Source: a virus. Taken from it: a DNA stretch of 23,044 nt. This document shows positions 1-23,044 of this stretch, piece after piece (positions within the stretch are counted from its first letter, which is position 1; each line of letters starts with the position of its first letter). The notes below the pieces were generated by a model. That model was not told the DNA's origin. It worked only from the letters and a program-made list of their open reading frames with translations, and did no database searches. Where the stretch lies: the IMG/VR virus record IMGVR_UViG_3300030098_000367, positions 3,442 to 26,485 of that record. The stretch is one strand, 5' to 3'. Made by a program: the position numbers and the translations under genes.

Positions 1-366
1 TCCAATACGCTCACATATTCAGATGGTGAGTATGTCGATGTCTATCAGAATGGTATACTACTCAAACCTGCCACAGATTACACCTCCACAACAGGCACAA
101 CAGTGGTTTTGGTTACAGGTGCATCCGTTAACGATGTTGTGGAGATAGTGGTATATGATGCGTTTAGCATAGCCAACAGCTACACCAAGTCAGAGTCAGA
201 CACACGCTATCCCTTCTTAGGTAACGACAGTATCATACGAACCAATGGTCAGACAATAAGTGCTGACATAACAATCAGTAGCACAACCAATGCACTGTCA
301 GCAGGACCTATTACAGTCGGTGCATCAGCAACGCTAACAGTTAATGGATTTTATACAATATTATGA
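1..366 (+). CDS. Tail fibre protein, C-terminal part (5' end outside window)
   Basis: The reading frame is open from base 1 and stops at 364-366, so the N-terminus lies upstream of the window. What is seen is a beta-rich, Ser/Thr/Gly-rich chain. It contains a segment reading YVDVYQNGILLKPATDYT, followed by VVLVTG and VVEIVVYDAF. In my memory this module recurs in fibre and appendage proteins of marine phages. A linker follows (SYTKSESDTRYPFL) and then a short C-terminal segment ending TVGASATLTVNGFYTIL. The stop overlaps the next start in an ATGA arrangement, which suggests translational coupling with the fibre-tip genes downstream. It is probably the shaft or base protein onto which the following small proteins assemble. 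An internal ATG at 103 exists, but the homologous module begins before it, so I do not take it as the start. Confidence 0.8.
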   Translation, partial: SNTLTYSDGEYVDVYQNGILLKPATDYTSTTGTTVVLVTGASVNDVVEIVVYDAFSIANSYTKSESDTRYPFLGNDSIIRTNGQTISADITISSTTNALSAGPITVGASATLTVNGFYTIL

Positions 367-764
367 CAAGTGAACTTAGAGTAGATAATTTAAAAGGTAG
401 CACCACAGGTGGAAGTATAAATGTCTTGGGTGAAGGTACATCTGCGACTACTAACTTACAGCAGGGGTTGTGTAAAGCTTGGTTAAGTTTTAATCAAAAT
501 ACAGCAGATGACAGTTTTAATATGTCTAGTGTTACTGATAGCTCCACAGGTAACTATATAACTGTGCTAAGTAATAATATGTCAAATGTAAATTATAATG
601 AAGTTGGAATGGCTAGAACCTATCATATTAATTCAAGCTCTGCTGATAATAAAACAACAACAGGAGACCAACATCAAACATTTTATGTTAGTAATACATC
701 AGGAGGAAGAACAAGCTTCGATTTATCTAGGTCTCATGTTTCATATTTTGGAGATTTAGCATAA
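363..764 (+). CDS. Fibre-tip / receptor-binding paralogue 1
   Basis: This 133-residue protein is the first of three tandem paralogues. The shared plan is a short N-terminal segment (MTSELRVDNLKGST), a GEG-x-TTNLQQGL-x-K-x-W core at residues ~23-40, then DSFN-S-TD and N-NMSN-Y motifs. The C-terminus is variable and ends in GDLA. The N-terminal 'SELRVDNLKG' type leader and GEG motif are familiar to me from small fibre-associated proteins of marine phages. The exact role is not proven. Position and internal variation suggest an exposed tip or adhesin that contacts the host receptor. The start at 363 overlaps the previous stop (ATGA) and the stop overlaps the next start (TAATG). No signal peptide or membrane segment is seen. 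Confidence 0.8.
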   Translation: MTSELRVDNLKGSTTGGSINVLGEGTSATTNLQQGLCKAWLSFNQNTADDSFNMSSVTDSSTGNYITVLSNNMSNVNYNEVGMARTYHINSSSADNKTTTGDQHQTFYVSNTSGGRTSFDLSRSHVSYFGDLA

Positions 765-1264
765 TGGCAAGTGAAATTAAAGTAGATACAATCGTCAATG
801 CAGGGGGAGATAATGACACTGGTATTGACCTTGCGACTAATGACCAGATATTGCTGAAGGTAGCCAATGCTACAAAGCTAACCATGAACTCCACAGGACA
901 GACCACTATTGTTGGAGAGGGTGGTACGACTACTACTAACCTACAACAGGGGTTAGCTAAATGTTGGGTTAATGTAGATATGGTAAATAACAATGTTAGA
1001 GATAGCTTTAATTTAAGTGGAACTACTGATAATGGAACAGGACGTTACGAATTAGCTTTTTCTAATAATTTTAATAATAATGATTACGCAGGAGCAGGTA
1101 TGAGTAAGGATGGTTCTGGTTATAATGATACTGCTAATTTAGGGTGTGACTATAACGGTGCTATGTCCACTAGTGCTTTTGAGATATTTGCCACACACGC
1201 AAGTGCTACGTCAGGTAATGACTCAGATTACGCAATGGTGATTATAGCAGGAGACTTAGCATAA
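764..1264 (+). CDS. Fibre-tip / receptor-binding paralogue 2
   Basis: This 166-residue protein is the second tandem paralogue. It is longer than its neighbours because of an extra ~30-residue stretch near the N-terminus (residues ~14-45) containing GIDLATNDQILLKVANATKLTMNS. That stretch resembles repeat units of phage fibre shafts. After it come the shared core GEGGTTTTNLQQGLAKCW, then DSFNLSGTTDNGTG, SNNFNNNDY and the ending IAGDLA. The rest of the C-terminal half has diverged from copies 1 and 3, as expected if it forms the receptor contact. The start lies in a TAATG overlap with copy 1 and the stop in a TAATG overlap with copy 3, so the three are almost certainly co-translated. Function is inferred from context, not from a recognised domain. 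Confidence 0.8.
   Translation: MASEIKVDTIVNAGGDNDTGIDLATNDQILLKVANATKLTMNSTGQTTIVGEGGTTTTNLQQGLAKCWVNVDMVNNNVRDSFNLSGTTDNGTGRYELAFSNNFNNNDYAGAGMSKDGSGYNDTANLGCDYNGAMSTSAFEIFATHASATSGNDSDYAMVIIAGDLA
944..969 (+). repeat. 26-base direct repeat, unit 1
   Basis: This is the DNA encoding the conserved core of fibre paralogue 2. It matches bases 1360-1385 in paralogue 3 at 25 of 26 positions (T versus G at the nineteenth base). Paralogue 1 carries a more diverged version at about 459-484. It is the best-conserved DNA stretch among the three copies and a plausible place for homologous exchange. Confidence 0.75.
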
Positions 1265-1668
1265 TGGCATCAACACTTAAAATAAATACATTAACAGGTG
1301 TCACCACAGCAGGGTCAATCGCTGTGACAGGCGAAGGGAATAGCACCACGACTAATCTGCAACAGGGGTTAGCTAAAGGTTGGGTAAACTTTGATACAAA
1401 TGATAACCCACCAGTTGCTAATGATAGTTTTAATGTAAGTAGTCTCACAGATGATGACCAAGAAGTAGAAATTAACATGACTAACGCAATGTCAAACAGT
1501 GTTTATTCTCCTACATCTAGTGGGGGAAACAGTAGTTCAAATCCATCTAACAGAAACTTAGCTGTTGCCATATTGTCTTCCTCAGTTATCAACTGTGAAA
1601 TGTTTACAACAAATAATGCAGCGGCAGTTGGATTACATCACGTTACATGGCATGGAGATTTAGCATGA
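1264..1668 (+). CDS. Fibre-tip / receptor-binding paralogue 3
   Basis: This 134-residue protein is the third tandem paralogue. It has the leader MASTLKINTLTGVTTAGSI, the core GEGNSTTTNLQQGLAKGW, DSFNVSSLTD, a divergent Ser/Asn-rich middle and the ending WHGDLA. It aligns end to end with copy 1 and lacks the shaft-like insert of copy 2. Around the LQQGLAK core the DNA is nearly identical to copy 2 (25 of 26 bases), while the outer parts have diverged. The stop TGA overlaps the next gene's ATG at 1665-1668. The likely role is an adhesin-type virion protein; a chaperone or trimerisation tag for the fibre is an alternative that sequence alone cannot exclude. Confidence 0.8.
   Translation: MASTLKINTLTGVTTAGSIAVTGEGNSTTTNLQQGLAKGWVNFDTNDNPPVANDSFNVSSLTDDDQEVEINMTNAMSNSVYSPTSSGGNSSSNPSNRNLAVAILSSSVINCEMFTTNNAAAVGLHHVTWHGDLA
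1360..1385 (+). repeat. 26-base direct repeat, unit 2
   Basis: This is the partner of 944-969, lying at the same place in fibre paralogue 3 and encoding the LQQGLAK-x-W core. There is one mismatch over 26 bases. Confidence 0.75.
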
Positions 1669-3326: not shown

Positions 3327-4481
3327 ATGCCAAGTACATATACAGACAATGGTGGTATAGAGAAGATAGGTCTTGGTGAAAAGGCAGGGGCTTGGGGAAC
3401 CACCACAAATAATAACTTTGATATCATAGACAAACTAACTAATGGTGTTGTTAGTATAACCCTTTCAGGCACAACGCATACTCTTACGACTAGTGATGGT
3501 TCAGTTTCTGATGGTATGTCAAAAGTTTTAGTTTTAGGAGGCTCACCCTCTGGAGAAAACACAATAACAATAAGTCCTAATGATGCAGACAAGTTATACT
3601 TTGTGCAAAATGGCACAAGTCAGATAGCTACATTTACACAAGGCTCTGGAGCTAACGTAAGCGTAGCAGCAGGAAAGCAAGCTATAATATTTGCAGATGG
3701 TGCAGGATCAGGAGCAGCAGTTACAGAGATCAAGCCAAATACTGCTGATGCAAGTGTAGTGACAGCAACCCTAGCAGATGATGCAGTAACGGCTGCTAAA
3801 ATAGCAGATGATGCCGTTGGTGCTGATGCTGTGGCTGATAATTCTATCGGAGCAGCAGCAATAAATATATCAGGAAATGGCACATCTGGTCAGGCTGTGG
3901 TTTCTGATGGAGATGGTAGCTTTAGTTACGAATCTAATATTGTGCCATCTGGTGCGTTGATGCCGTATGCAGGAACTTCTGCTCCAACAGGTTTCTTACT
4001 GTGTGATGGTTCGGCTGTATCAAGAACTACTTATGCAACTCTCTTTTCTGCTATAAGCACAACATATGGATCAGGTGATGGTTCATCGACATTTAATCTT
4101 CCAGATTTACGAGGAAGAGTTGTTGCAGGTCAAGATGACATGGGGGGTGCATCAGCCAATAGACTTACTGATCAAACAGGTGGTCTTAATGGTGACACAT
4201 TGGGAGACACAGGAGGTTCTGAAACACATACATTGACAACAGCACAGTTAGCGTCACACACGCACACTTTTAGTGATACAGATTCACACACTGTTTCCTT
4301 CCCCAGAACTTTGATTGTAGGAGCTGCTAATAATTCCGTAAACGTAGACGGTAGTGGACAGCGACACGATGGTGGCACTCTAACTGTTTCAATTAGTGGA
4401 ACTACAAGCAGTACAGGTAGTGGTTCGGCACACAACAACGTACAGCCTACAATAATCTTGAACTACATTATAAAAACATAA
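3327..4481 (+). CDS. Tail-collar domain fibre protein
   Basis: This is a 384-residue fibre protein. Residues ~1-205 form a Gly/Thr/Ser-rich shaft with an Ala/Asp repeat (TLADDAVTAAKIADDAVGADAV type), likely a trimeric rod. Residues ~207-275 match the phage tail-collar domain (Pfam PF07484): PSGALMPYAG, PTGFLLCDGSAVSR, LFSAI-TTYG-GDGS-TFNLPDLRGR. The C-terminal part has THTLTTAQLASHTHTF with His311 and His313 in an HxH arrangement, and ends NVQPTIILNYIIKT, the usual end of this family. HxH residues in related fibre tips (T4 gp37, gp12) coordinate metal along the trimer axis; here that is an inference. The likely role is a host-contacting short tail fibre. A strong ribosome binding site precedes it. 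Confidence 0.92.
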   Translation: MPSTYTDNGGIEKIGLGEKAGAWGTTTNNNFDIIDKLTNGVVSITLSGTTHTLTTSDGSVSDGMSKVLVLGGSPSGENTITISPNDADKLYFVQNGTSQIATFTQGSGANVSVAAGKQAIIFADGAGSGAAVTEIKPNTADASVVTATLADDAVTAAKIADDAVGADAVADNSIGAAAINISGNGTSGQAVVSDGDGSFSYESNIVPSGALMPYAGTSAPTGFLLCDGSAVSRTTYATLFSAISTTYGSGDGSSTFNLPDLRGRVVAGQDDMGGASANRLTDQTGGLNGDTLGDTGGSETHTLTTAQLASHTHTFSDTDSHTVSFPRTLIVGAANNSVNVDGSGQRHDGGTLTVSISGTTSSTGSGSAHNNVQPTIILNYIIKT

Positions 4482-4490
4482 GAGAATATT

Positions 4491-6812
4491 ATGGCTTTAA
4501 CTAAATTACAGTTTAGAGCAGGAATAAACAGAGATTCAACATCATACACCAACGAAGGTGGTTGGTTTGATGGAGACAAAGTACGTTTTAGAAATGGTTT
4601 GCCTGAGAAGATAGGTGGTTGGACAAAGTATTCAGATACACAGTTTGTAGGAACTTGTCGTGCTTTGCACACATGGACAGCATTAGATAACACAAACTTT
4701 ATAGGCATAGGCACAAGTCAGAAGTATTACCTCAACGCAGGTGGTACTTACTATGACATAACACCTCTAAGACTTACCACAGGTGGTGGCGATGTTACAT
4801 TCTCTGCAACTAATGGAAGCTCTACCATAACTGTGACTGACACAGATCATGGGGCAAACCTAAATGACTTTGTTACTTTTACAAACGCAGGAACACTGGG
4901 TGCTAATGTAACAGCAAGTGTTTTAAACCAAGAACATCAGATAACATCCATAATAAGTAGCAGTCAATATGCTATTGACGTAATAAGTTTGTTAGACACA
5001 ACGGCTATTAACGATACAAATGGTATAAACGAATCTGTTACTTCTGTAACTGTAGATGATACTAGCTCTTTTGCTTCATCTGGAACTATAAAGATAGATG
5101 ACGAGTTAATCACTTACTCTGGCAAAACGTCAGACACTCTTACAGGTCTTACTAGAGGTGCATTAAGCACTAGTGCAGCTACTCATGCCGATGATGCTAC
5201 CGTAACAGAGATGCCCAATGCGTCAGATTCTGGGAATGGTGGAAGCTCTACAGTGGGAGAGTATCAGATAAATGTAGGACTAGAAGATAACTCCTACGGA
5301 AATGGTTGGGGTGCAGGTATATGGGGTGGTATATCTGGATCAGCAGCAACCACAGCCGTAAACGATGGAAGTGGTATGACAGCTTCAGCGACTAGCGTAA
5401 CAGTAGATTCATCGGCTAACTTTGAAACAACAGGATACTTGTTAATAGACAGCGAGATAATTCAATACACAGGAAAAACATCTACTACATTTACAGGATT
5501 AACTAGAGGATTGTTTGGAACAACGGCAGCCACTCACGCTGATGATGCTACAGTCACAGAGGCATCAGGGGGTTGGGGTGTACCTGCCACTACAAACATA
5601 GCAGGAGCTTTGTTGCGTCACTGGTCACACGATAACTTTGGCGAAGACCTAGTTATGAATGTTAGAGATGGTGCAATATATTATTGGGATAAATCAAGTG
5701 GTACATCATCAAGAGCCGTAGAGATTACAACACTAGCAGGGTCTACCAACGCACCAACAATAGCCAAGAAGGTAATAGTCTCTGAAAGAGACAGACACGT
5801 TCTAGCCTTTGGTTGTGATAGTGAGACAGCAAGTGGCACACAAGACCCATTGCTAATTAGATTTGCCTCACAGGAAAGCCTTACGGAATGGAACGCACTG
5901 CCAACAAACACGGCAGGTGAGTTGCGTATTGGTACAGGATCAGAGATTGTTACAGCCGTGCAGACAAAGCAACAGACACTTGTTATTACAGATGTATCGG
6001 TACACGCATTACAGTTTATTGGCCCTCCGTTTACTTTTGGTATTACAGAGGTTGGTAGAAACACCACGATAATATCTGAGAATGCTGCCGTGGCTGTAGA
6101 GGAGTCTGTATACTGGATGGGATACAGAGAGTTCTATGTTTATAATGGTCGAACACAAAAGCTCGTATGTCCTGTGCAAGACTTTGTGTTTAGTGATTTA
6201 AACAGAGATCAAGATACAAAGATTGTAGCAGGTCAGAATAGTGCATACTCTGAAGTATGGTGGTTCTACCCATCATCAGATGCCACAGCTAATGACAGGT
6301 ATGTGGTATATAACTATGAACAAAACATTTGGTATTATGGCACTCTGGCAAGAACAGCATGGGTAGACAGAGGTGTTTTGTTGTATCCCATAGCTGCCTC
6401 AACAGATAACTATCTTTACTATCAGGAGTTTGGTTTAGACGATGGATCGCAATCACCTGCATCAGGAATTACATCGTTTATAGAATCAAGTCAGGTTACC
6501 ATAGGAGATGGAGACAAGTTCTTCTTTGCAAATAAAGTTATACCAGACATAACATTTAGAGAGAGTACAAACGAAACACCACAGGTCAACTTGACGTTAA
6601 AGGCAAGACGGTTCCCTGGGACTACATACAATCAGACAGAGACAAGTGCAGTTACACAGTCAGCAAGTACGCCTATAGAGTTATTCACTGAGAAGGCTGA
6701 TATACGCCTCAGAGGGCGTTCTTTTGCTCTTAGGCTAGAAAGTACAGCAACAGGCGTTTCATGGCGTTTAGGAACCACTAGAATTGATCTGAGGCAGGAT
6801 GGTAGGCGATAA
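4491..6812 (+). CDS. Large tail protein, probable nozzle/tail-tube (T7 gp12-like role)
   Basis: This is a 773-residue protein opening MALTKLQFRAGINRDSTSYT, then EGGWFDGDKVRFR-G-PEKIGGW. I recognise this signature as a very widespread large tail protein of marine podo- and siphoviruses. It resembles in plan the T7 gp12 / P22 gp10 nozzle proteins, which also begin with a strand-rich head and read as beta-propellers; that equivalence is inference. Two 57-residue modules (residues 184-240 and 301-357) are homologous: VTVD-SS-F-TG---ID-E-I-YTGKT--T-TGLTRG---T-AATHADDATVTE. Such modules occur as surface insertions in tail proteins. The C-terminal half contains VYWMGYREFYVYNGRTQKLV and a Trp/Tyr-rich region typical of a propeller. 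Nine bases separate it from the collar gene, and it overlaps the next gene by TAATG. Confidence 0.82.
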   Translation: MALTKLQFRAGINRDSTSYTNEGGWFDGDKVRFRNGLPEKIGGWTKYSDTQFVGTCRALHTWTALDNTNFIGIGTSQKYYLNAGGTYYDITPLRLTTGGGDVTFSATNGSSTITVTDTDHGANLNDFVTFTNAGTLGANVTASVLNQEHQITSIISSSQYAIDVISLLDTTAINDTNGINESVTSVTVDDTSSFASSGTIKIDDELITYSGKTSDTLTGLTRGALSTSAATHADDATVTEMPNASDSGNGGSSTVGEYQINVGLEDNSYGNGWGAGIWGGISGSAATTAVNDGSGMTASATSVTVDSSANFETTGYLLIDSEIIQYTGKTSTTFTGLTRGLFGTTAATHADDATVTEASGGWGVPATTNIAGALLRHWSHDNFGEDLVMNVRDGAIYYWDKSSGTSSRAVEITTLAGSTNAPTIAKKVIVSERDRHVLAFGCDSETASGTQDPLLIRFASQESLTEWNALPTNTAGELRIGTGSEIVTAVQTKQQTLVITDVSVHALQFIGPPFTFGITEVGRNTTIISENAAVAVEESVYWMGYREFYVYNGRTQKLVCPVQDFVFSDLNRDQDTKIVAGQNSAYSEVWWFYPSSDATANDRYVVYNYEQNIWYYGTLARTAWVDRGVLLYPIAASTDNYLYYQEFGLDDGSQSPASGITSFIESSQVTIGDGDKFFFANKVIPDITFRESTNETPQVNLTLKARRFPGTTYNQTETSAVTQSASTPIELFTEKADIRLRGRSFALRLESTATGVSWRLGTTRIDLRQDGRR

Positions 6813-7109: not shown

Positions 7110-7667
7110 ATGGGCAAAAGAAGTAACTTTGAACGTGTAGAGAAAGACTATTATCCGACTCCATTAGAGGCTGTGCATCCTCTTATTCCTCACATACTTG
7201 GTCACATCAAGACATTTGCTGAACCATGTGCAGGCGATGGCTCCCTGATACGTCATATAGAATACCTTACAAATAACTTGTTTGATATTGACTATATTAG
7301 GTGCAACTATGCCTGTGATATAGAGCCAAAGGATGATGGTATACACGAAAAGAATGTGTTTAATCTTCTTCACAAAGACATAGAAGCATCAGACGTAATT
7401 ATAACAAATCCACCGTGGAGCCGTGAGATACTACACAGGGTAATCTATCACTGCACCTCAATAAAACCTACATGGTTGCTGTTTGATGCCGACTGGATGC
7501 ACACCAAACAAAGCACACATTACCGTGATATGTTGAAAAAGATCGTAAGTGTTGGTAGAGTGGAGTGGATTAAAGGAAGTAAAAACACTGGTAAAGATAA
7601 TTGTTGTTGGTATTATTTTGATAAAGACAACAAGGAACAGACACAGTTTTTTGGTAGACAGACATGA
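7110..7667 (+). CDS. Orphan DNA N6-adenine-type methyltransferase
   Basis: This 185-residue protein is a compact class I SAM-dependent methyltransferase. Residues 14-18 read YYPTP, frequent near the N-terminus of phage adenine methylases. Residues ~35-46 (TFAEPCAGDGSL) form motif I for SAM binding. Residues 100-103 are NPPW within IITNPPWSRE, the catalytic motif IV of amino-methyltransferases acting on adenine N6 or cytosine N4. The C-terminal part has GRVEWIKGSKNTGKDN--WY-F, which I recall from a small phage adenine-methylase family. No target-recognition domain is obvious, and no restriction gene is nearby. The likely role is to methylate phage DNA against host restriction or to mark it during late infection. 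It is coupled to the next gene by an ATGA overlap. The position between tail and lysis genes is unusual. Confidence 0.87.
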   Translation: MGKRSNFERVEKDYYPTPLEAVHPLIPHILGHIKTFAEPCAGDGSLIRHIEYLTNNLFDIDYIRCNYACDIEPKDDGIHEKNVFNLLHKDIEASDVIITNPPWSREILHRVIYHCTSIKPTWLLFDADWMHTKQSTHYRDMLKKIVSVGRVEWIKGSKNTGKDNCCWYYFDKDNKEQTQFFGRQT

Positions 7668-9539: not shown

Positions 9540-9684
9540 CTGTGAAATTTGTGGTCATGACATGGAGAACGTAGATGGAAGTTTACGTTGTAAATACTGT
9601 CAATACTTTTATGATATGCACAAGGAATGGATAAATTTTGTTCGTAAGAAATCAAATGTAAAGGAGGAAAACGATGAAAGATAA
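9517..9684 (+). CDS. Small zinc-ribbon protein 2 (55 aa)
   Basis: This short gene encodes a 55-residue protein with two CxxC pairs, C9-E-I-C12 and C25-K-Y-C28, separated by GHDMENVDGSLR, then an aromatic/basic helix (QYFYDMHKEWINFVRKK) and a charged end. The start at 9517 is preferred over the in-frame ATG at 9562 because only it includes the first cysteine pair. It overlaps the preceding zinc-ribbon gene by 23 bases and the endolysin gene by 11 bases in different frames. The pair of knuckles argues for a real zinc-binding protein; the target is unknown. Confidence 0.7.
   Translation: MNQNSSTSCEICGHDMENVDGSLRCKYCQYFYDMHKEWINFVRKKSNVKEENDER
9661..9667 (+). promoter_or_regulatory. Strong Shine-Dalgarno for the endolysin
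   Basis: AAGGAGG is a full match to the anti-Shine-Dalgarno, six bases before the ATG at 9674. It lies inside the coding end of the second zinc-ribbon gene and is the strongest ribosome binding site in the window, as expected for an endolysin needed in quantity. Confidence 0.8.
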
Positions 9685-10186
9685 TTTTGATGAATGCCTT
9701 AAAATGTTACTACATCACGAAGGTGGCTATGTGAATCATCCCAGCGATCCCGGGGGCGAAACTAACCTTGGGGTCACAAAGAAAGTATATCAGGAATGGG
9801 GTGGCACAAAGGATATGAAAGACCTCACGGTTGAGGATGTTGCTCCTATATACAAGAAAAACTACTGGGATCGCTGTAAATGTGATGACTTAGAATCTGG
9901 CGTTGACTGGGTCGTTTTCGACTGGGCTGTGAACAGCGGCACTGGCAGGTCAGCTAAGGCTATACAAAAGATATGTGGTGCAGCACAAGACGGAGCTATA
10001 GGGCCAAAGACATTGGCGTTGATAGGCACACAGAATACGCAGTATGTCATAGAGGAGTTTGGCAAGATACGACAAGACTTCTATGAATCTTTGAAAACAT
10101 TTGATACATTTGGTAAGGGATGGACAAGACGTAACAAGGAAACCACTGAAAAAGCCTTGGAGATGATAGAGGAAGATGACGACTAA
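9674..10186 (+). CDS. Endolysin, GH108 N-acetylmuramidase
   Basis: This 170-residue protein carries the GH108 signature near the N-terminus: HHEGGYVNHPSDPGGETNLGV, with the predicted catalytic Glu16 in the E-GGY motif. The usual helical body follows (YKKNYWDRCKCDDL, WVVFDWAVNSGTGRSAKAIQ), then a C-terminal peptidoglycan-binding part (DGAIGPKTLALI, family PG_binding_3). The enzyme cleaves the beta-1,4 bond between N-acetylmuramic acid and N-acetylglucosamine in peptidoglycan. There is no signal peptide or SAR-type N-terminal helix, so export should depend on the holin encoded upstream. The length is typical of the family. The start has a strong AAGGAGG; the 3' end overlaps the next gene by 11 bases. 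Confidence 0.95.
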   Translation: MKDNFDECLKMLLHHEGGYVNHPSDPGGETNLGVTKKVYQEWGGTKDMKDLTVEDVAPIYKKNYWDRCKCDDLESGVDWVVFDWAVNSGTGRSAKAIQKICGAAQDGAIGPKTLALIGTQNTQYVIEEFGKIRQDFYESLKTFDTFGKGWTRRNKETTEKALEMIEEDDD

Positions 10187-10484
10187 AAAAGACCCACGAT
10201 TAGCTAGAGCAGGTGTATCAGGATATAATAAGCCGAAGAGAACACCTAGCCACCCAAAGAAGTCACACATTGTTGTGGCTAAAGAGGGTGACAAGATTAA
10301 AACCATACGGTTTGGTCAGCAAGGCAAGAAAGTGGGTACGGTTAGTGGTACAGCAGGCAAACCAAAGGCAGGCGAATCAAGGCGTATGAAGATGAAACGT
10401 AAGAGTTTCAAGGCTAGACACGCTAAGAATATAGCCAAGGGTAAGATGTCAGCAGCCTATTGGGCTGACAAGGTTAAGTGGTAG
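10176..10484 (+). CDS. Small basic protein, DUF6321-like (102 aa)
   Basis: This 102-residue, strongly cationic protein opens MTTKKDPRLARAGVSGYNKP. It contains KRTPSHPKKSHIVVAKEG-K-KTIRFGQQG and ends in a highly recognisable block: RKSFKARHAKNIAKGKMSAA followed by YWADKVKW. I remember this end as conserved in many marine phages (DUF6321-like), function unknown. The ribosome binding site GAGGAAG lies within the end of the endolysin gene. This is the last plus-strand gene before the single minus-strand gene, with which its 3' end overlaps by 11 bases, tail to tail. Confidence 0.85.
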   Translation: MTTKKDPRLARAGVSGYNKPKRTPSHPKKSHIVVAKEGDKIKTIRFGQQGKKVGTVSGTAGKPKAGESRRMKMKRKSFKARHAKNIAKGKMSAAYWADKVKW

Positions 10485-10752
10485 AATCATCTATAGCTTC
10501 GGCTGTAGCTCCTGCATACCCCGCTATATCAATCCAAGTGTCTTCGTGGTGCATATCTTCCTTTGATCTAGCTATTTTGGCTAACATAAACAAGACACCA
10601 ACATCATACACAGATATGTCTTTTTCAAGGTGGCATGACCATAGCTTTGCTATACGGCTAAAGTTTTGATAAGGCGTACCATAGCTATTGCCACGCTTGC
10701 CTACAATCTCTTGTGCCTTGCCAATGATTTCTTCTTTCTTTGTTTGCTTCAT
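10474..10752 (-). CDS. DUF6378-like small protein, only minus-strand gene
   Basis: This 92-residue protein on the minus strand opens MKQTKKEEIIGKAQEIVGKR. It has YGTPYQNFSRIAKLW at ~24-38, YDVGVLFMLAKIARSKED at ~49-66 and DTWIDIAGYAGATAEA at ~71-86. The plan 'YG-P--NF--IA-LWS------I---DV---M-L-KIAR------DSW-DIAGYAA' is one I recognise as the DUF6378 family, common in phages; its all-helical motif set recalls MazG-like nucleotide pyrophosphohydrolases, but catalytic identity is not shown. The start is supported by AAGGAA six bases upstream on the minus strand. It lies tail to tail with the late plus-strand genes and head to head with the ejection block. Confidence 0.88.
   Translation of the reverse strand: MKQTKKEEIIGKAQEIVGKRGNSYGTPYQNFSRIAKLWSCHLEKDISVYDVGVLFMLAKIARSKEDMHHEDTWIDIAGYAGATAEAIDDSTT
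10491..10508 (+). other. UUCG-tetraloop hairpin after the lysis-block stop codon
   Basis: CTATAGC at 10491-10497 pairs with GCTGTAG at 10502-10508 (seven pairs, one G-U), closing a TTCG loop at 10498-10501 with a C-G pair. In the plus-strand RNA this gives the very stable cUUCGg tetraloop, starting six bases after the stop of the 102-residue protein. No T-run follows, so it is not a classical intrinsic terminator. It could protect the 3' end of a processed late transcript. It also lies in the coding 3' end of the minus-strand gene, so it may be incidental. Confidence 0.45.
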
Positions 10753-15257: not shown

Positions 15258-18200
15258 ATGGGCTTTGTAGTTGTCCAAGACCCACAAACGGCTAAACCAT
15301 ACACTATTAAGATAGCAGGTGATTCTCCTACTGAAGATGAACAGAGGCAGATACAGCAATTCATAGAAGAACAAAGACAGGTAGTAGATCAAGAACCTGT
15401 GGAGCCAACTGATGATAAGTCAGGCACTGCATTAGGTCGTGGTGCTAGTGTAGGTATAGATGTATTACAGCAAATGTACGGTAGTGCCTTAGAGGGTATT
15501 GGTAAAGTCACTGGTATAGAAGGTCTTAGAGACTATGGTGCGTCTGTTGTAGAAACAAATGAACAGCAAATAGCTGAAAAGCAACAAGATTTTACAAGGC
15601 GAGAAGACATAGGAAAAGATGGCTCTTATGTAGGTGATTCTTTTAGTTTCTACGGTGAAACACTAGGTCAAAACTTGCCACAGCTAGGCACATCCATAGG
15701 TGCAGGCTTGATTGGTCAGGCTGCTATACCTATACCAGGTGTAGGATTTGTAGTGGGTGCATTGGCAGCTAATCTACCTTTTTTCTATGGCTCACACAGA
15801 GAAAGACAAAAGGAGGCTGTTGAACAGGGTATAAGAACAGAGCTAGACGAGGGAACGGCAGCCCTATACGCTATACCTGCCGCAGCCCTTGACACGTTAG
15901 TGGATAAGTTTCTCATAGCACTAAAGCCTTTTGGTTTAGGATTTAGTAAGTCAGCTATATCGCCAAATGTAGGTGGTTTATTTAGTCGTGCAGCCAAAGG
16001 GGCAGGTGCAGGTGCTGCTGTAGAAGTGCCTACAGAACTTGGTCAACAGGTTATAGAAAGGTTTCAAGCAGGTCTTCCCATAGACGATGACGAGGCTATG
16101 AAAGAGTATGTAGACGTAGCCATAGCGTCAGGTCTAGTTGGTGGTACTGTGAGAGCTACTACAAGTGCCGTCACAGGAGACACTAAGGAAAACATAGAGA
16201 AGAAAGAGGCTGCCCTAGCCAAAAGACAGCTTGAAATAGACAATGCCTTACAAACGGCAGAGGCTAAAGAATTACAAAGGAACGCAGAGAAAAATCTAGA
16301 AGAGGGCTTTGATGGTGTATTGCCTGTGGATAGGTCTATTGAAGAGGCAACCATACTTACATCACCTACTGATCCATCTGAAGATCAGGCTTTAAGAAGA
16401 GAAACTGGTGAAATAAAGGTATTTGATTTAAGGCCAGAGTATAGAAATATACTTCTTGAGGAGAGGCGAAAGGCAGATATAGAAGTTGATAATCCTATTA
16501 CTGACCTACAGGAAATAAAAAGATTCTTAGAGCCTCGAACAAGACGAGGGTTAACGGCAGAGGTAGCCAACGAAATCAACACTATGAATGTTCCTAAGAG
16601 GTTCGAGGAAAGTCAGTACAATACTGTTGTTAATTATTTTAAGAAAAAGAGTGTTGATACGAAAGGACTAACAAGGGAGAACATAGTTGATAGGGTTAAG
16701 AAGATACTTGTTTCAGGCAAACAGGCAGATCAGGGTGGCGATGTTACGAACACGACAGCGAAGAGAATTACTGACCAGATGGTTCTGGATGGATATATAA
16801 GTCTTGCCAAGCCTGAATCAAAAGGAAACGACAGAATATATGTTATTAATGAAGAAACTATTAATGACAAAAGAAACAAGGAAATAGAGAACGCCAGAAA
16901 GCTACTGGAGAATGCAAAAGAGAGAAAGCCCAAGATACAAGAAGAGCGTGAAGAAGCGTTTTCAGGGCCAGTAGACAACAGTATTCAGGCTATTCTTGCT
17001 AGGAGTGACAAGCAAAGAAAGCTAGATGATGTAAATGGTGAGATCAGAAGATTAAACTCAACCATATCTAGGCTTCAAAAAGAAATAAGAGAGTCTAATC
17101 CTACCTTAAATCTAAGAAGAAAAACAGCGACAGAGATTAATCCTGTACAGCAAAAGGTCAACAATGCTCTCATACCTGCTGAGAAGGCTGCTGAGTTTCG
17201 TCAGGCTGATAAAGACAAGGAAAAAGCACAGTATATCAACAAGAGAGATGACGTACTAAAATCCTTAAGAAAGTATATGGGCAAACTAGGATTAGCTGAT
17301 GTTAAGCTTGTTGCTGAAAATGTTATTGGCACTCAAGGAAAAGACTTATCTAAAAAAGACTTCATTGTAGAAGGTGAGTTTAATGATTCGGATGGCAGAC
17401 GTATAATCAGTCTAGCCATGAGCCTCTATGACAGGAACCTGTCTAACACAGAGTTTGAGCAAAGACTTCAGGGTGTTTTAAATCACGAGGTTATACACGC
17501 TGTAAAGAGCCTTGGTTTGTTTACAAATGATGAATACAAATCCTTAGTCAAAGCAGCCATGACGAGAAAATACGTCATGAAAGATGGAAAGAAACTTATA
17601 GAAAGAAAGTATACATACTTCGATAGAGCCAAGAGTTTATATCCAAATCTTGACCAAGAGGGCTTACAAGAGGAGGCCATAGCTGAGATGTTCCGTGACG
17701 CTATGGATGGTAAGTTTAAACTGGTAGGCCGTCCAAAGACACTAATGCAAAGGTTTATTGACTTCTTCAAGTCCATATTCAATGCCCACGAGGAAAACGG
17801 TTTCCAAAATGTTGACGATATATTTGAGGGCATTAGGACAGGAGATATAGGTGAGAGAGCGAGAACTGATGATCGTGAGTATTTAGATACAAAAGTATCA
17901 CCTAAAGCTGAACAAGGTAAGCAATCAAGAAGAAGTCTAACCACAACACTTAACCCTGTTACAGCAAAGGAAGAGATAAGAGCCAATAAGGTTGGTGGTA
18001 AGATTACGGTTCCAGACTTACAGAATTATCTGCAAGATTTTCACATGAAAACATATGGTAGACGATTAGACTTTGCCAACTCTGAAGATAGAGCCATAGC
18101 TATAAATACTGCCGTTCCAGAGATACTTGATATGTTGAAGAGAGATGTATCAGGTAAGGGTTGGTACGATGAGGATGTTGTAAAAACATTTGAGATGTTA

Positions 18201-21200
18201 TCTCAGATACCAGACTTGGAAAGTCTAAGGAGCAATGAAAACCGTAGAGTTATTTGGTCAGCTATTGCAGGTGTGACTTCAAATGGTAATCCTGTTCCCC
18301 AGAACGCTAAGGTAGCTACAGCACAACTATTGCGTAGACTAAGAACAGGTAAGTTTGACACAACACCACCTCCAAAAGGCACAACAGTAGAGAATGTACC
18401 TAACGCAGGATTTGGTGTACGAGGGCCAAGCATAGGAAAGGGTCTAAACCTTTTGAATACTTTACTGGATAAGTACGGTGAAAAAGGATTTGCTGAGTTC
18501 TGGCTTTCCCAACACACACTTAGAGAGTTAACAGACCTAAGAAAAGAATCAGGTCTTGGTGGGTCACCTGGTGGTCTTGGTGGTGGTTTAAATAGTATGC
18601 ACTTGGGTGCAAAGATTATAGGAGACAAGACAGGGAACTTTTCTCTTAATATAAATGGCTACGATGTGTCCACAAAAGATGTTTGGTTCACTCGAACTAT
18701 AAGAAGACTTGAGGGAACATTTGATACCAAAGGCCGTCATTTAGATGGTAAAGAAAAAGGAAAAGAGTTTGGTCAACCTAAAGGTATTGTAGACAGACAA
18801 AACATGGATGACTTCATGGCTGAACTACAGGGTGATCCTCGACTGGCTAAATTTAATTTGTCAACTCAGGACTTACAGGCTATACTCTGGTACAAAGAGC
18901 AAAACTTATATACAGAGTTGGGTGTTCCATCAAGACCCCAATCTTTTAGCGAAGGGATAGAAACACTAAATGACCTCTTACCAGAAGGACAAAGATTTCA
19001 GCGAGGCGATGATGCTGAAACTCAGGCTCAACGAGGAGCTACGCAACTCGAAGGATTTCGAGAAAGAACAGCAGGACAAGAAGCTCTCCCCACAACCACA
19101 GGAACAGCAAAGAGATCAGTAAGAAAGTTATCTAATTTTATCAGGGAAAACCCTGATGGATTTACTATTACTTCTGATACTTATGAGCCTGCGTCTGGTG
19201 GATTTGTTGTAGCACCTGTTAAGAGTGCTGAGATAATTGTAGACAAAGATATACCTAGAAGTGTCTTAAAAGAATACATACAAAACGCTAGAGATTTAGC
19301 CTCATCATTAGACAGAGAAGTATTTATGGGAGGGTGGTTCAACAGTGATGACAGCAAGTATTACCTTGACAATGTGATCATAGTTGATAATAAGGAAGAG
19401 GCTTTATACATAGCAGAGTCAGCAGATCAAATAGCATTCTTTGATTTAAATACATTTGAAGAAGTAAGGACGCAAGATGGAATTGAACAACTCAAACAAG
19501 ACGGAACTTATCGGAGTGAACTCTCAGAGCGACTTGGAAGAGACCTTGAACAAGCTAGAAAACGCTTTGAAAAAACAAGGCTTCAACGTGACGGACGATC
19601 AAAACAATCAAGAAGAGCCACAGCAGGAGAAGTAAATCCTACTCTCTTTGATGTAGCACCACAGGAAGACCTAGACAAACTATCAGAGGCTGTAAACAGA
19701 CTTGATGAACAAGTCGTAACGCCAAATGTTAAGTATTCTCGTTTAGCAACTAAGCCATCTAATCCAAACGCACTGCGTGAGATACCCATAAACTTTGAAA
19801 ATGTTCCTATTGATTATAAGCGACAGCTTAGTGAGTCGGCACTGAGGTACGCCTATGGCTATATAAGGGAACGTGGTGGTGACGTTTTACCTGTAACATA
19901 CACAGATGGTAACCACGTTGTCCTCAAGGATGGTCGAGAGGGTGGTTATGGTGCATGGCACATTGTAACAAGAGGACACGACAAAGAAATAAGAGATGCC
20001 ACAGGTCAGGAGCCTGATCGAGTCATATACACCATGATGAACAAAATGATTCAGCAAGAGTATGGCAATGCAGGATATCAGGGAATAGAAGTCAAAGCCG
20101 ACACTGGTAGAAGTATACAGATAACATGGGAATCTAACAGACCAAAGGGTTACCCTCCTATAATACTGTCTTTAATGTTTCAACCAAGCACCAAGGCTTA
20201 CACTGTTAGAACCATATATCCAACAAGAGAGCAAAGAAAGCCAAGGCTAACTTTTCAGACAGATAGAAACAGATCAAGAAGGCCAAGCCAAGATAGCCCC
20301 TTTGCATCCCTTCAACAGCTTAACCTACAATCACCCGCCAGAAGGAGCGTAAGGCGGCTCAGTGTGGCTCCTACAGGCTCTCAGAGCCTATTTGGAGCAG
20401 AGGGTACGTTTGGTGAGTTAGATCAGAGACTACAGGCCACAACATACACTAATTCTCTACAGGCAATAGAGAAGGTGATTCGTGGTGGAACACTAGGGTT
20501 TGTATCCCAAGAAAAAGCCAAGAAATTAGCCACGAGTTTTATATCTAAGTTCCAAGACAAAATGATCCCTGTGGCTATCATGCTTGATGAATTAAAAAAG
20601 AAAGGTCTTAAGCTAAGGGATGCCTTTGATCCGTATCTACAGGACGAGCTATTCTATGGTATCACTGGTAAAGAAATTACAACCAGACAGGATGGTATAT
20701 ACAACGATATTGTACAGGGTATTAAACGTCTTATAGTCACAGACAGTGATATAGATGGTCTTATAAGTGCATCTAAGGCAAACAATCCCTTGCGATCCAG
20801 TTTTGTTGACGAGCAAATAAAGGCAGGTAAAGACAAGAAGGTGGCTTTGTTTGAGGCATATCTATATGCACAACACGCTAAAGAAAGAAACGAATACATA
20901 TTAGAGAAAACATCAGAGGACACTGGGAACATGGTTCCCAATGAAGTTGGCTCTGGTATGACAGATGCAGAAGCTGATGCCATAATTAACTGGTTTGACA
21001 CATACGCCAATAAAACACAGGTTGAGGTTATAAATGGTCAGGTAAGGCAAGTAGTAGCTGACACTAATAGAGTAAGACAAGATGGTCAGTTGTCACCTAT
21101 ATTTGATGCAGACGATGCACCTTGGAAGTCCTATGTACCTCTCAAGGGTTCTCTTGACCCTGATGACGAGACAGCCGAACTGTCCAACAGACCAGTTCAA

Positions 21201-23044
21201 GTTAATAAACAAATAAAAGGTCTTAGAGAGGATAGGCGTGTAACAGGTAGAAGTAAGTATGCCACTGATATTATGGGCAACCTATTTCAGCAAAACACTA
21301 CAGCTATTCTACGAGCCGAAAGAAACAAGGTTGGCTTATCTATGCTTAATCTTTTGGAAACAAACGATCCAAACATTGTCACAACCACAGAGGCTGACCT
21401 AGCCAGAACAGACTTTGGCAGTGTCATACAGGTAACGCCTAGAAAGAAAGTTGTCGATACTCGAACAGGTGTCATTAGTCAGAGAGCGATAACACCACAG
21501 GAAATAGCCCAAGACCCAAATGTACTCATAGTTAAAAGGCGTAACCCAGAGAATGAAAAAGAAATACAGGAAGTGGCTATAGAGTTTACTGATCCACGAA
21601 TAGCCTCAGCTATGAGAGGTGACAGCTTGGTATCACCATCACACGGTATGAGTGGTATACGTTTCTTAGCAAGGGTAAACAGGTTCCTAGCCTCCGTTAA
21701 CACTAGTTACAACCCTGCCTTTATTGTGCCTAACTTCTCTCGTGACCTTATTACAGCGTCTATAAACATAGCTCAGTATGACTTGCCAAACGTACAGCGT
21801 GATATGCTTAAGAATGTTCCGTCATCCATGAGAGGCATAAGAAGGTATGTCTTTAGTAATGATAGAGATTCTGATGAAGCCAAGATGTACGAAAGATTTC
21901 TAAATGCAGGTGGTCAGAATGTTTTAAACACTGTGACAACACTGGCTGATCAGGTAAGAGATATAAATAATATCATGGGTAACGTAGCCAAAAGACCCAT
22001 AAGAGATAGCTTTGTCGGTAAGGGTGCAAAGAAACTAGGGTCACTGCTTGAGAATACAAACATCGTGGCTGAAAACGCCATGCGTGTAGCTACATTTAAA
22101 ACACTTGTAGAGAAAGGTTTCTCTGATGCACGAGCAGCTCAAGCAGCCAGAAACGTAACAGTAAACTTTGCCAAGACAGGTGAGTATGGTCGTATCCTAA
22201 ACTCTATGTATCTTTTTTACAACGCCTCTATACAGGGTACATTTGCAGCCCTACAGGCAGCCACAAAGTCAAGGAAGGTGAGAGCCATGTGGGCAGGTCT
22301 TATAGCCTATGGCTTGATGCAAGACCAGTTGGCAGCTTTGTTTGGTGAAGAGGATGAAGATGGTAACCTGATATACGATAAGATACCTGACTATACTCTT
22401 GAGCATAACTTGGTATTACCTGACTTAGTTGGTGTTACAGATAGATCATTCATCACCATACCATTTCCATATGGATTTAATATGGCGTTTAACACAGGTC
22501 GATCCTTAAGTAGATGGAGTAGAGGTGCATACACAGCAGGGGAGGCAGCCAATAGTATGGAAGGAACATTGTATGAGATTATAAATCCTCTTGGTGGTAC
22601 AGAGAGTTTCTTAAACTTTGTTGCTCCCACTGTTGCCGATCCGTTTATTAGTGTGGCACAGAACTTTGACTATGCAGGAAGACCTATATACAAGGAGCCA
22701 TCACAGTTTGGTATAGGAAAGCCTGATAGCCAGTTGTATTGGAACAGCACAACAAATACAGCCAAGTTTATAGCAGAGAAGGCAAACGAATTAACAGGAG
22801 GAACCAAGGGAGTGTCAGGCGTTGTTGATGTTAACCCTGCATTGATAGACTTCTGGTTTGAATATACGATTGGTGGTTTGGGAAGATTTGTAAATAATGT
22901 GGGTGACTTGGCAGTAGGTACAGTCACTGGCGATCCAAAGGGATTGCTTGTCGAGGGATTTACAGAGGAGAATGTAAGGAGACTTCCTGTAGCTCGTAAG
23001 TTTGTTTACTCCGTATCGGAGAGAGAGGATGTAGGAGAGTTTGT
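15258..23044 (+). CDS. Giant polyvalent ejection protein, gp16-like, at least 2595 aa (3' end outside window)
   Basis: The frame is open from the ATG at 15258 to the window end. Visible modules: residues ~140-320 Gly/Ala-rich, with a hydrophobic stretch; ~449-532, helical, possibly winged-helix; ~530-620, charged coiled-coil; ~720-820, zinc metallopeptidase with HEVIH (His743, Glu744, His747) and EEAIAE at 805-810; ~916-1033, a conserved block (GWYDEDVVKTFEML, VTSNGNPV) resembling DUF7178; ~1178-1224, STQDLQAILWYKEQNLYTEL; ~1313-1408, a block with GGWFNSDDSKYYLDN; ~1550-1655, YGAWHIVTRGH (His1568, His1574), nuclease-like; ~2130-2390, LPD38-like (RFLASVNTSYNPAFIVPNFS). This fits a large polyvalent protein in the gp16 position, injected with the DNA. 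Domain names are from memory; the C-terminus is unknown. Confidence 0.85.
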   Translation, partial: MGFVVVQDPQTAKPYTIKIAGDSPTEDEQRQIQQFIEEQRQVVDQEPVEPTDDKSGTALGRGASVGIDVLQQMYGSALEGIGKVTGIEGLRDYGASVVETNEQQIAEKQQDFTRREDIGKDGSYVGDSFSFYGETLGQNLPQLGTSIGAGLIGQAAIPIPGVGFVVGALAANLPFFYGSHRERQKEAVEQGIRTELDEGTAALYAIPAAALDTLVDKFLIALKPFGLGFSKSAISPNVGGLFSRAAKGAGAGAAVEVPTELGQQVIERFQAGLPIDDDEAMKEYVDVAIASGLVGGTVRATTSAVTGDTKENIEKKEAALAKRQLEIDNALQTAEAKELQRNAEKNLEEGFDGVLPVDRSIEEATILTSPTDPSEDQALRRETGEIKVFDLRPEYRNILLEERRKADIEVDNPITDLQEIKRFLEPRTRRGLTAEVANEINTMNVPKRFEESQYNTVVNYFKKKSVDTKGLTRENIVDRVKKILVSGKQADQGGDVTNTTAKRITDQMVLDGYISLAKPESKGNDRIYVINEETINDKRNKEIENARKLLENAKERKPKIQEEREEAFSGPVDNSIQAILARSDKQRKLDDVNGEIRRLNSTISRLQKEIRESNPTLNLRRKTATEINPVQQKVNNALIPAEKAAEFRQADKDKEKAQYINKRDDVLKSLRKYMGKLGLADVKLVAENVIGTQGKDLSKKDFIVEGEFNDSDGRRIISLAMSLYDRNLSNTEFEQRLQGVLNHEVIHAVKSLGLFTNDEYKSLVKAAMTRKYVMKDGKKLIERKYTYFDRAKSLYPNLDQEGLQEEAIAEMFRDAMDGKFKLVGRPKTLMQRFIDFFKSIFNAHEENGFQNVDDIFEGIRTGDIGERARTDDREYLDTKVSPKAEQGKQSRRSLTTTLNPVTAKEEIRANKVGGKITVPDLQNYLQDFHMKTYGRRLDFANSEDRAIAINTAVPEILDMLKRDVSGKGWYDEDVVKTFEMLSQIPDLESLRSNENRRVIWSAIAGVTSNGNPVPQNAKVATAQLLRRLRTGKFDTTPPPKGTTVENVPNAGFGVRGPSIGKGLNLLNTLLDKYGEKGFAEFWLSQHTLRELTDLRKESGLGGSPGGLGGGLNSMHLGAKIIGDKTGNFSLNINGYDVSTKDVWFTRTIRRLEGTFDTKGRHLDGKEKGKEFGQPKGIVDRQNMDDFMAELQGDPRLAKFNLSTQDLQAILWYKEQNLYTELGVPSRPQSFSEGIETLNDLLPEGQRFQRGDDAETQAQRGATQLEGFRERTAGQEALPTTTGTAKRSVRKLSNFIRENPDGFTITSDTYEPASGGFVVAPVKSAEIIVDKDIPRSVLKEYIQNARDLASSLDREVFMGGWFNSDDSKYYLDNVIIVDNKEEALYIAESADQIAFFDLNTFEEVRTQDGIEQLKQDGTYRSELSERLGRDLEQARKRFEKTRLQRDGRSKQSRRATAGEVNPTLFDVAPQEDLDKLSEAVNRLDEQVVTPNVKYSRLATKPSNPNALREIPINFENVPIDYKRQLSESALRYAYGYIRERGGDVLPVTYTDGNHVVLKDGREGGYGAWHIVTRGHDKEIRDATGQEPDRVIYTMMNKMIQQEYGNAGYQGIEVKADTGRSIQITWESNRPKGYPPIILSLMFQPSTKAYTVRTIYPTREQRKPRLTFQTDRNRSRRPSQDSPFASLQQLNLQSPARRSVRRLSVAPTGSQSLFGAEGTFGELDQRLQATTYTNSLQAIEKVIRGGTLGFVSQEKAKKLATSFISKFQDKMIPVAIMLDELKKKGLKLRDAFDPYLQDELFYGITGKEITTRQDGIYNDIVQGIKRLIVTDSDIDGLISASKANNPLRSSFVDEQIKAGKDKKVALFEAYLYAQHAKERNEYILEKTSEDTGNMVPNEVGSGMTDAEADAIINWFDTYANKTQVEVINGQVRQVVADTNRVRQDGQLSPIFDADDAPWKSYVPLKGSLDPDDETAELSNRPVQVNKQIKGLREDRRVTGRSKYATDIMGNLFQQNTTAILRAERNKVGLSMLNLLETNDPNIVTTTEADLARTDFGSVIQVTPRKKVVDTRTGVISQRAITPQEIAQDPNVLIVKRRNPENEKEIQEVAIEFTDPRIASAMRGDSLVSPSHGMSGIRFLARVNRFLASVNTSYNPAFIVPNFSRDLITASINIAQYDLPNVQRDMLKNVPSSMRGIRRYVFSNDRDSDEAKMYERFLNAGGQNVLNTVTTLADQVRDINNIMGNVAKRPIRDSFVGKGAKKLGSLLENTNIVAENAMRVATFKTLVEKGFSDARAAQAARNVTVNFAKTGEYGRILNSMYLFYNASIQGTFAALQAATKSRKVRAMWAGLIAYGLMQDQLAALFGEEDEDGNLIYDKIPDYTLEHNLVLPDLVGVTDRSFITIPFPYGFNMAFNTGRSLSRWSRGAYTAGEAANSMEGTLYEIINPLGGTESFLNFVAPTVADPFISVAQNFDYAGRPIYKEPSQFGIGKPDSQLYWNSTTNTAKFIAEKANELTGGTKGVSGVVDVNPALIDFWFEYTIGGLGRFVNNVGDLAVGTVTGDPKGLLVEGFTEENVRRLPVARKFVYSVSEREDVGEF

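Follow-up and report, generated by a model that had tools for sequence, protein, structure and literature searches.

Phage polyvalent proteins are encoded near virion genes, and MPTase, PBECR and LPD38 domains are known in them (Iyer et al. 2017, PMC5512222). LPD38 is listed as phage-type only, and the metallopeptidase of the class has been proposed to act as its processor (PMC5512222). One giant LPD38-bearing protein of the Bcep22 type, JC1 gp69, was detected in CsCl-purified virions with 51 unique peptides and the top score after the major capsid protein (PMC9144972). The N4 virion RNA polymerase (vRNAP, gp50) is an ejected protein of 3500 residues, with a zincin domain and a large helical C-terminal domain without known relatives (PMC12633501). 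Ejection proteins of very large size are believed to cross the tail in a partly unfolded state (PMC8402733). A swap of the transglycosylase between gp16 and gp15 is on record for ejection proteins, and gp15 homologues have been assigned mostly by size and synteny (PMC8954989).

Here we describe a giant gene in a 23,044-nucleotide stretch of DNA from a marine virus of bacteria (the window), which covers positions 3442–26485 of a 26,485-base record. Its product combines in one polypeptide six modules, N, MP (metallopeptidase), M3, M4, NUC and C, each of which has its own distribution (Table 1); their boundaries come from profiles built on relatives of the giant protein. As in phage polyvalent proteins (PMC5512222), a very long chain of unrelated domains is encoded near virion genes, with a zincin-like metallopeptidase hub, a BECR-type nuclease candidate, LPD38 as a domain of the class, and domain shuffling. 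In contrast to described members, LPD38 is the only module family here to reach a curated Pfam model, the N-MP-C chassis is fixed, and M3 and M4 carry no described activity. The protein is a new arrangement of this known class, rather than a new class. An initial annotation of the DNA had proposed a polyvalent protein in the position of an ejection protein, with a metallopeptidase, a possible nuclease and LPD38, and this proposal is borne out.

Table 1 Features of the giant gene and its operon. Positions are those of the window; residues are those of the giant protein.
Feature	Residues	Position	Strand	Remarks
Conserved gene opening the operon segment	357 aa	10845..11918	+	22 loci
gp13-position gene	138 aa	11915..12331	+	Kept in operon, 26 loci
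gp14-position gene	296 aa	12324..13214	+	PHROG_4287 DNA ejection protein, E 5e-12
gp15-position gene	679 aa	13214..15253	+	Homologues directly upstream of giant gene, about 45 loci
Giant polyvalent protein gene		15258..23044	+	2595 codons; 3′ end beyond record
N module	1-347	15258..16298	+	PHROG_6958 (virion structural protein), E 2e-9
Hydrophobic Gly/Ala-rich stretch	about 146-179	15693..15794	+	Candidate membrane segment; Kyte-Doolittle windows 1.3-1.8
MP, zincin-type metallopeptidase by signature	650-869	17205..17864	+	Conserved HExxH...EExxxE signature
HEVIH zinc motif	743-747	17484..17498	+	H743, E744, H747 invariant, 31/31
EEAIAE	805-810	17670..17687	+	E805, E806, E810 invariant, 31/31; candidate third zinc ligand
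M3 cargo module	930-1194	18045..18839	+	Divergent relative of Pfam DUF7178
M4 cargo module	1287-1450	19116..19607	+	Alpha/beta fold, high-confidence prediction; PHROG_17808
NUC module	1530-1663	19845..20246	+	BECR/RelE-like nuclease candidate
C module	1750-2595 (to about 2708 in L002)	20505..23044	+	Mostly helical chassis
LPD38 (PF18857), inside C module	2373-2555	22374..22922	+	Pfam E 2.1e-34, above gathering score

A giant gene at the end of an ejection-type operon

The giant frame opens with an ATG and stays open to its last full codon at 23042, running off the end of the record. An independent contig, L002, carries an intact copy with a stop codon, 2708 residues long and 91% identical in protein sequence (90% in nucleotide sequence), so about 113 residues are missing from the window's protein. 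Comparison of the two copies gave a dN/dS of 0.138 for the whole gene, with 0.34 for M4, 0.10 for the C module and the lowest value, 0.065, for MP. The intact copy, this ratio and 46 single frames that hold N, MP and C show that the frame has not arisen by chance but is a gene kept by purifying selection, which confirms the open frame of at least 2595 codons reported initially.

Across about 45 contigs, the giant gene is the last gene of a conserved operon. Genes of 357, 138, 296 and 679 aa precede it in an order common to dozens of relatives, as far as their contigs reach, and this order places it in the gp16 position. Its place after gp14- and gp15-position genes is analogous to that of T7 gp16, and it is likewise the largest protein of the ejection operon; however, T7 gp16 is half as long, carries a transglycosylase that is absent here, and has a C-terminus described as basic where that of the giant protein is acidic. 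The giant protein has no sequence or profile match to T7 gp16, and profile comparison of the operon neighbours with T7 gp13, gp14 and gp15 gave no match either. The earlier description of a gp16-position protein behind gp13-, gp14- and gp15-like genes therefore holds for position and gene order, but not for homology to the T7 proteins. It also remarked on the lack of a lysozyme motif; domain searches agree, with no transglycosylase or lysozyme domain in the giant protein and no transglycosylase in the window's record. An SLT transglycosylase domain is present in the gp15-position gene of two relatives only, L026 and L029.

Adjoining the ejection operon is a gene for a GH108-type endolysin with a peptidoglycan-binding domain (window 9674-10186). 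A small gene on the - strand (10474-10752) is matched in 21 loci, in a few of which the homologue lies between the endolysin region and the ejection operon. Further upstream, among structural genes, a small DNA-methyltransferase-like protein with an NPPW motif (PHROG_799) is encoded at 7110-7667. A 773-aa virion structural protein (4491-6812) matches baseplate/tail-fibre families and, weakly, Rcc01698_C, and has two similar inserted repeats at residues about 177-242 and 291-356. Six related small genes of about 133-166 aa form two runs of three, at window 363-1668 and at 310-1531 of L095, the latter in record G000 upstream of the window. They share a 'TTNLQQGLAK' core and 'GDLA' or 'GNLA' ends and are probably tail-fibre-like duplicates.

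The N, MP and C modules

Residues 44-322, within the N module, match a virion structural family in PHROGs. The module also gave weak matches to the crAss001 cargo protein gp45 (E 0.03 and E 3e-4). These fall on the stretch that holds the predicted membrane helix of gp45, but are limited to the hydrophobic segment, and the two proteins have no other module in common. A PADLOC match to PDC-M09B (149-218) was discounted, as it falls on the same hydrophobic stretch and is absent from P0002.

For MP, an alignment of 31 non-redundant sequences, in which the others are 25-63% identical to the window, shows the full HExxH...EExxxE signature in every member, with E759 also invariant (31/31). The metallopeptidase of the initial annotation is thereby confirmed as a conserved signature. 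In the predicted model, both motifs lie on helices, with pLDDT mostly >90. The best matches of individual members are weak and point to M13, SprT, M48 and DUF2268 zincins; M13 was matched by 14 of the 31 (best 3.7e-5), and the best peptidase match of the window's own module is SprT-like (E 0.2). No curated Pfam zincin family reaches threshold for MP, and a search with the window's MP alone found few near relatives. Judged by its signature, MP is a zincin-type metallopeptidase, and it is assigned to no named peptidase family.

The C module spans ~960 residues and occurs in phages that infect many different hosts and in one virus of an archaeon. LPD38, which lies inside it, was the sole family recognised in a Pfam search of the giant protein, and the LPD38-like region suspected earlier is secure. 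A search of the viral collection, with a seven-sequence alignment of the C-terminal part as query, returned at least 562 relatives, of which 80 were kept, and a search of the bacterial genome collection gave 71 loci. Named carriers include Ruegeria phage 45A6 (3912 aa), Vibrio phages (2502 aa), Methanosarcina virus MetMV (3002 aa), Burkholderia phage BcepIL02 (4667 aa) and pelagiphage HTVC204P (gp40, 1253 aa); searches also named Stx-converting E. coli podophages. The MetMV gene (L007, 5332-14349) places the module in an archaeal virus, whose host has an envelope unlike that of bacterial hosts. PHROGs match residues 1752-2558 to three giant-protein families. The C-module fold has no match among solved structures in the PDB, while in BFVD it matches 73 viral proteins (E 0.001 or lower), several of which bear names such as large polyvalent protein or LT_GEWL. 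Among 61 C-bearing frames with a complete 5′ end, the tail that follows the C profile nearly always measures 92-110 residues.

Proteins of the Bcep22 type, BcepIL02 gp70 and its relative JC1 gp69, have a homologous C module with LPD38 and are encoded near the end of the virion module. The window's C module matches BcepIL02 gp70 with a pairwise E of 1e-38; the match of the BcepIL02 module to the C profile is stronger (E 8e-174), the profile having included the BcepIL02 sequence. These proteins differ in their length of 4500-4700 aa and are about 25% identical over the C module, and in JC1 gp69 lytic transglycosylase, methylase-like and helicase-like regions take the place of MP-M3-M4-NUC. The C profile also matches, over much of its length, pelagiphage HTVC204P gp40 (E 3e-32, hhalign 99.3%), whose gene follows an internal virion protein gene; this protein is shorter, at 1253 aa, and has no match to the N and MP profiles.

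The N4 vRNAP is also a giant ejected protein in which a zincin is followed by a large, mostly helical C-terminal domain; unlike it, the giant protein has no polymerase. Compared with the C-terminal part of the N4 protein, MP and C scored about 34-37, against 22-26 for reversed controls, with a probability of at most 16%. The scores lie above the controls but are not significant, even with a more diverse N4 set, and do not establish homology. It is conceivable, if doubtful, that MP-C represents a single, widespread chassis for ejection, which either gave rise to or is shared with the zincin and helical part of N4 vRNAP and the gp16-position proteins of pelagiphages. Phages and an archaeal virus would equip this chassis with exchangeable effectors, each in a dedicated slot. 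Were this so, the polymerase of N4 would be just one cargo.

Exchangeable cargo between MP and C

The variant is distinguished by its fixed N-MP-C chassis and by a zone of exchange that lies between MP and C. The N-MP-C order is constant in all 46 single frames that hold the three modules (1879-3391 aa), while among the 61 C-bearing frames with a complete 5′ end, 51 have MP, 44 N, 31 NUC, 20 M3 and 14 M4; both sets include the window, L002 and some near-duplicate contigs. Along a tree of 45 C modules, the presence of M3 changes at least 8 times, that of M4 6 times and that of NUC 4 times, and the whole cargo order changes 13 times. M3 and M4 are in reversed order in L014, L031, L033, L034, L040 and L045. 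The initial annotation supposed that the exact set and order of modules might be undescribed, but they are not unique to the window, being found also in L023/L024 and L026.

M3 occurs in more than 400 viral loci. Compared by profile, M3 matches the segment of family member L055 that belongs to DUF7178 (92.6%, E 4.5e-7), and the window's own M3 lies below the reach of the Pfam DUF7178 model. In 80 loci examined, the frames range from 793 to 2884 residues, several being cut by the contig end, and 68 have none of the other modules in the available stretch. One of these loci, L238, has M3 fused downstream of a Mu-type portal (Portal_Mu), and the L236 frame has the same size. A search with region 915-1314 of the window found one near relative. 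The module resembles HhH-GPD glycosylases at the level of motifs, but in a profile-profile comparison with 18 sequences from bacterial genomes hhalign scored them no better than decoys, and the assignment was rejected as unproven.

NUC is probably a BECR-like nuclease, judging from conserved residues and a predicted model. H1568 (21/21), H1574 and Q1600 are invariant, and T1652 is kept in 18 of 19 sequences. The model has a histidine-bearing helix, two further helices and then four strands (model positions 971-975, 980-985, 996-1003 and 1008-1016), the last of which holds T1652. Roughly a dozen of the 50 PDB neighbours listed by Foldseek are RelE/HigB-type toxins, none of them significant; as their E-values are about 1-3 and the aligned region is not given, they support the assignment without proving it. 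The curated PBECR1 model had no match in 39 records, one member gave a weak match, and none of the Pfam PBECR families reaches threshold; the alignment is too variable for a pattern scan. The nuclease first raised as a possibility thus gains the two invariant histidines, the near-invariant threonine and a helix-plus-four-strands model, but no curated family. The claim of several catalytic modules stands for the zincin, with its full signature, and probably for the BECR-like module, but not for M3 and M4, which have no known activity.

Near-identical phages that differ by a clean swap of one domain offer a natural experiment. Over much of the upstream region compared, the window and L002 are about 96-97% identical. 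Within the giant gene, divergence is 1.9% at residues 830-1009, rises to 22% at 1009-1205, which is most of M3, falls to 1.2% at 1206-1289, rises again to 18% at 1289-1446 (M4) and is 2.9% from there to 1879. Divergence is also high (15%) in the N part, up to residue 683. The second cargo block, 1289-1446, compares with M4 boundaries of 1287-1450 that were set from other phages. These alignments are most simply read as the exchange of M4 in a single block, through recombination in the linkers on either side of it. The linkers around M3, M4 and NUC are predicted to be disordered, with pLDDT of about 24-44.

Two contigs have the giant gene split into two frames (L015, 2089-11009; L061, 4160-12748), through either a sequencing error or a true split.

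In this abundant family, with more than 560 viral loci for the C module and 71 in bacterial genome assemblies, carrier and cargo are separable by comparison. The module boundaries, the effector candidates and the delivery part can therefore each be tested singly, and M3 and M4 are offered as two conserved cargo domains for study of their activity.

Proposed packaging, ejection and processing

We consider it probable that the giant protein, of about 2700 residues, is a virion-packaged, ejected and self-processing polyvalent protein, built as a chassis with exchangeable cargo. It would be packaged with the gp14- and gp15-position products encoded just upstream and exit the head before the DNA or together with it, passing through like a thread of folded beads with flexible linkers between them; in the predicted model, folded modules are joined by linkers of pLDDT about 30. 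Its hydrophobic N-terminal part probably makes contact with the membrane of the host, and the C module, as the conserved chassis, may dock it in the virion, the channel or both. The metallopeptidase would then cut the chain in the linkers. Released in this way, the cargo (M3, M4 and the putative RNase of BECR type) would act once inside the new host cell, its targets being most likely host RNA or the host's defences. We infer injection from the position in the operon, the presence of a C-module relative in virions (PMC9144972) and the precedent of the class (PMC5512222); packaging, autoproteolysis, RNase activity and targets are likewise proposals, while the sequences themselves show the gene, its operon, the conserved modules, the catalytic signatures and the shuffling of cargo.

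The ejection operon, JC1 gp69 in virions, the zincin signature in 31 of 31 sequences and the exchange of cargo all point to a packaged and ejected carrier. The gp15-position transglycosylase of L026 and L029, the predicted folded modules and linkers, the BECR layout of NUC and the fusion of M3 to a Mu-type portal also speak for it. Against it count the low identity, about 25% over the C module, of the relative that was detected in virions, the lack of a Pfam zincin or PBECR family at threshold, the non-significant fold matches of NUC, the weak link to crAss001 gp45 and the C module's want of a match in solved structures.

Its main competitor, which we regard as unlikely, is a purely structural internal-core or ejectosome protein, with modules that act as structural spacers, and with metallopeptidase and nuclease-like domains that either are relics or function only in virion maturation. 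The position in the ejection operon and the large, helical C module would suit such a protein, the zincin alone has a complete catalytic signature, and N4 vRNAP enters the virion uncut, its zincin-bearing region being required for packaging (PMC5512222). However, the cargo is gained, lost, reordered and allelically replaced, as expected of effectors and unlike spacers; catalytic residues are invariant at 20-65% identity, and MP has the lowest dN/dS (0.065).

Considerably less credible is an antirestriction protein of the DarB type, which would stay with the DNA and protect it in cis rather than deliver effectors. The C module is common to proteins annotated as DarB-like antirestriction (BcepIL02 gp70), but these Burkholderia proteins owe their DarB-like label to other domains. 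The giant protein lacks the SWI2/SNF2 helicase and DNA (adenine) methylase that define DarB, and P1 DarB matches none of its modules.

More improbable still is a tail protein, such as the tape measure, of a long-tailed phage. The gene is long and lies late in the structural region, and one relative is filed as Myoviridae, but the protein is predicted to consist of separate folded modules with disordered linkers between them, not of a coiled rod. One of the neighbours matches a family of DNA ejection proteins, and relatives occur in podophages (Bcep22 type, PMC9144972; pelagiphage HTVC204P). An assembly artefact joining several genes, as might be feared of a metagenomic contig open at its end, has a negligible chance and is for practical purposes refuted by the intact 91%-identical copy in L002, the 46 single N-MP-C frames in all and purifying selection across the joins.
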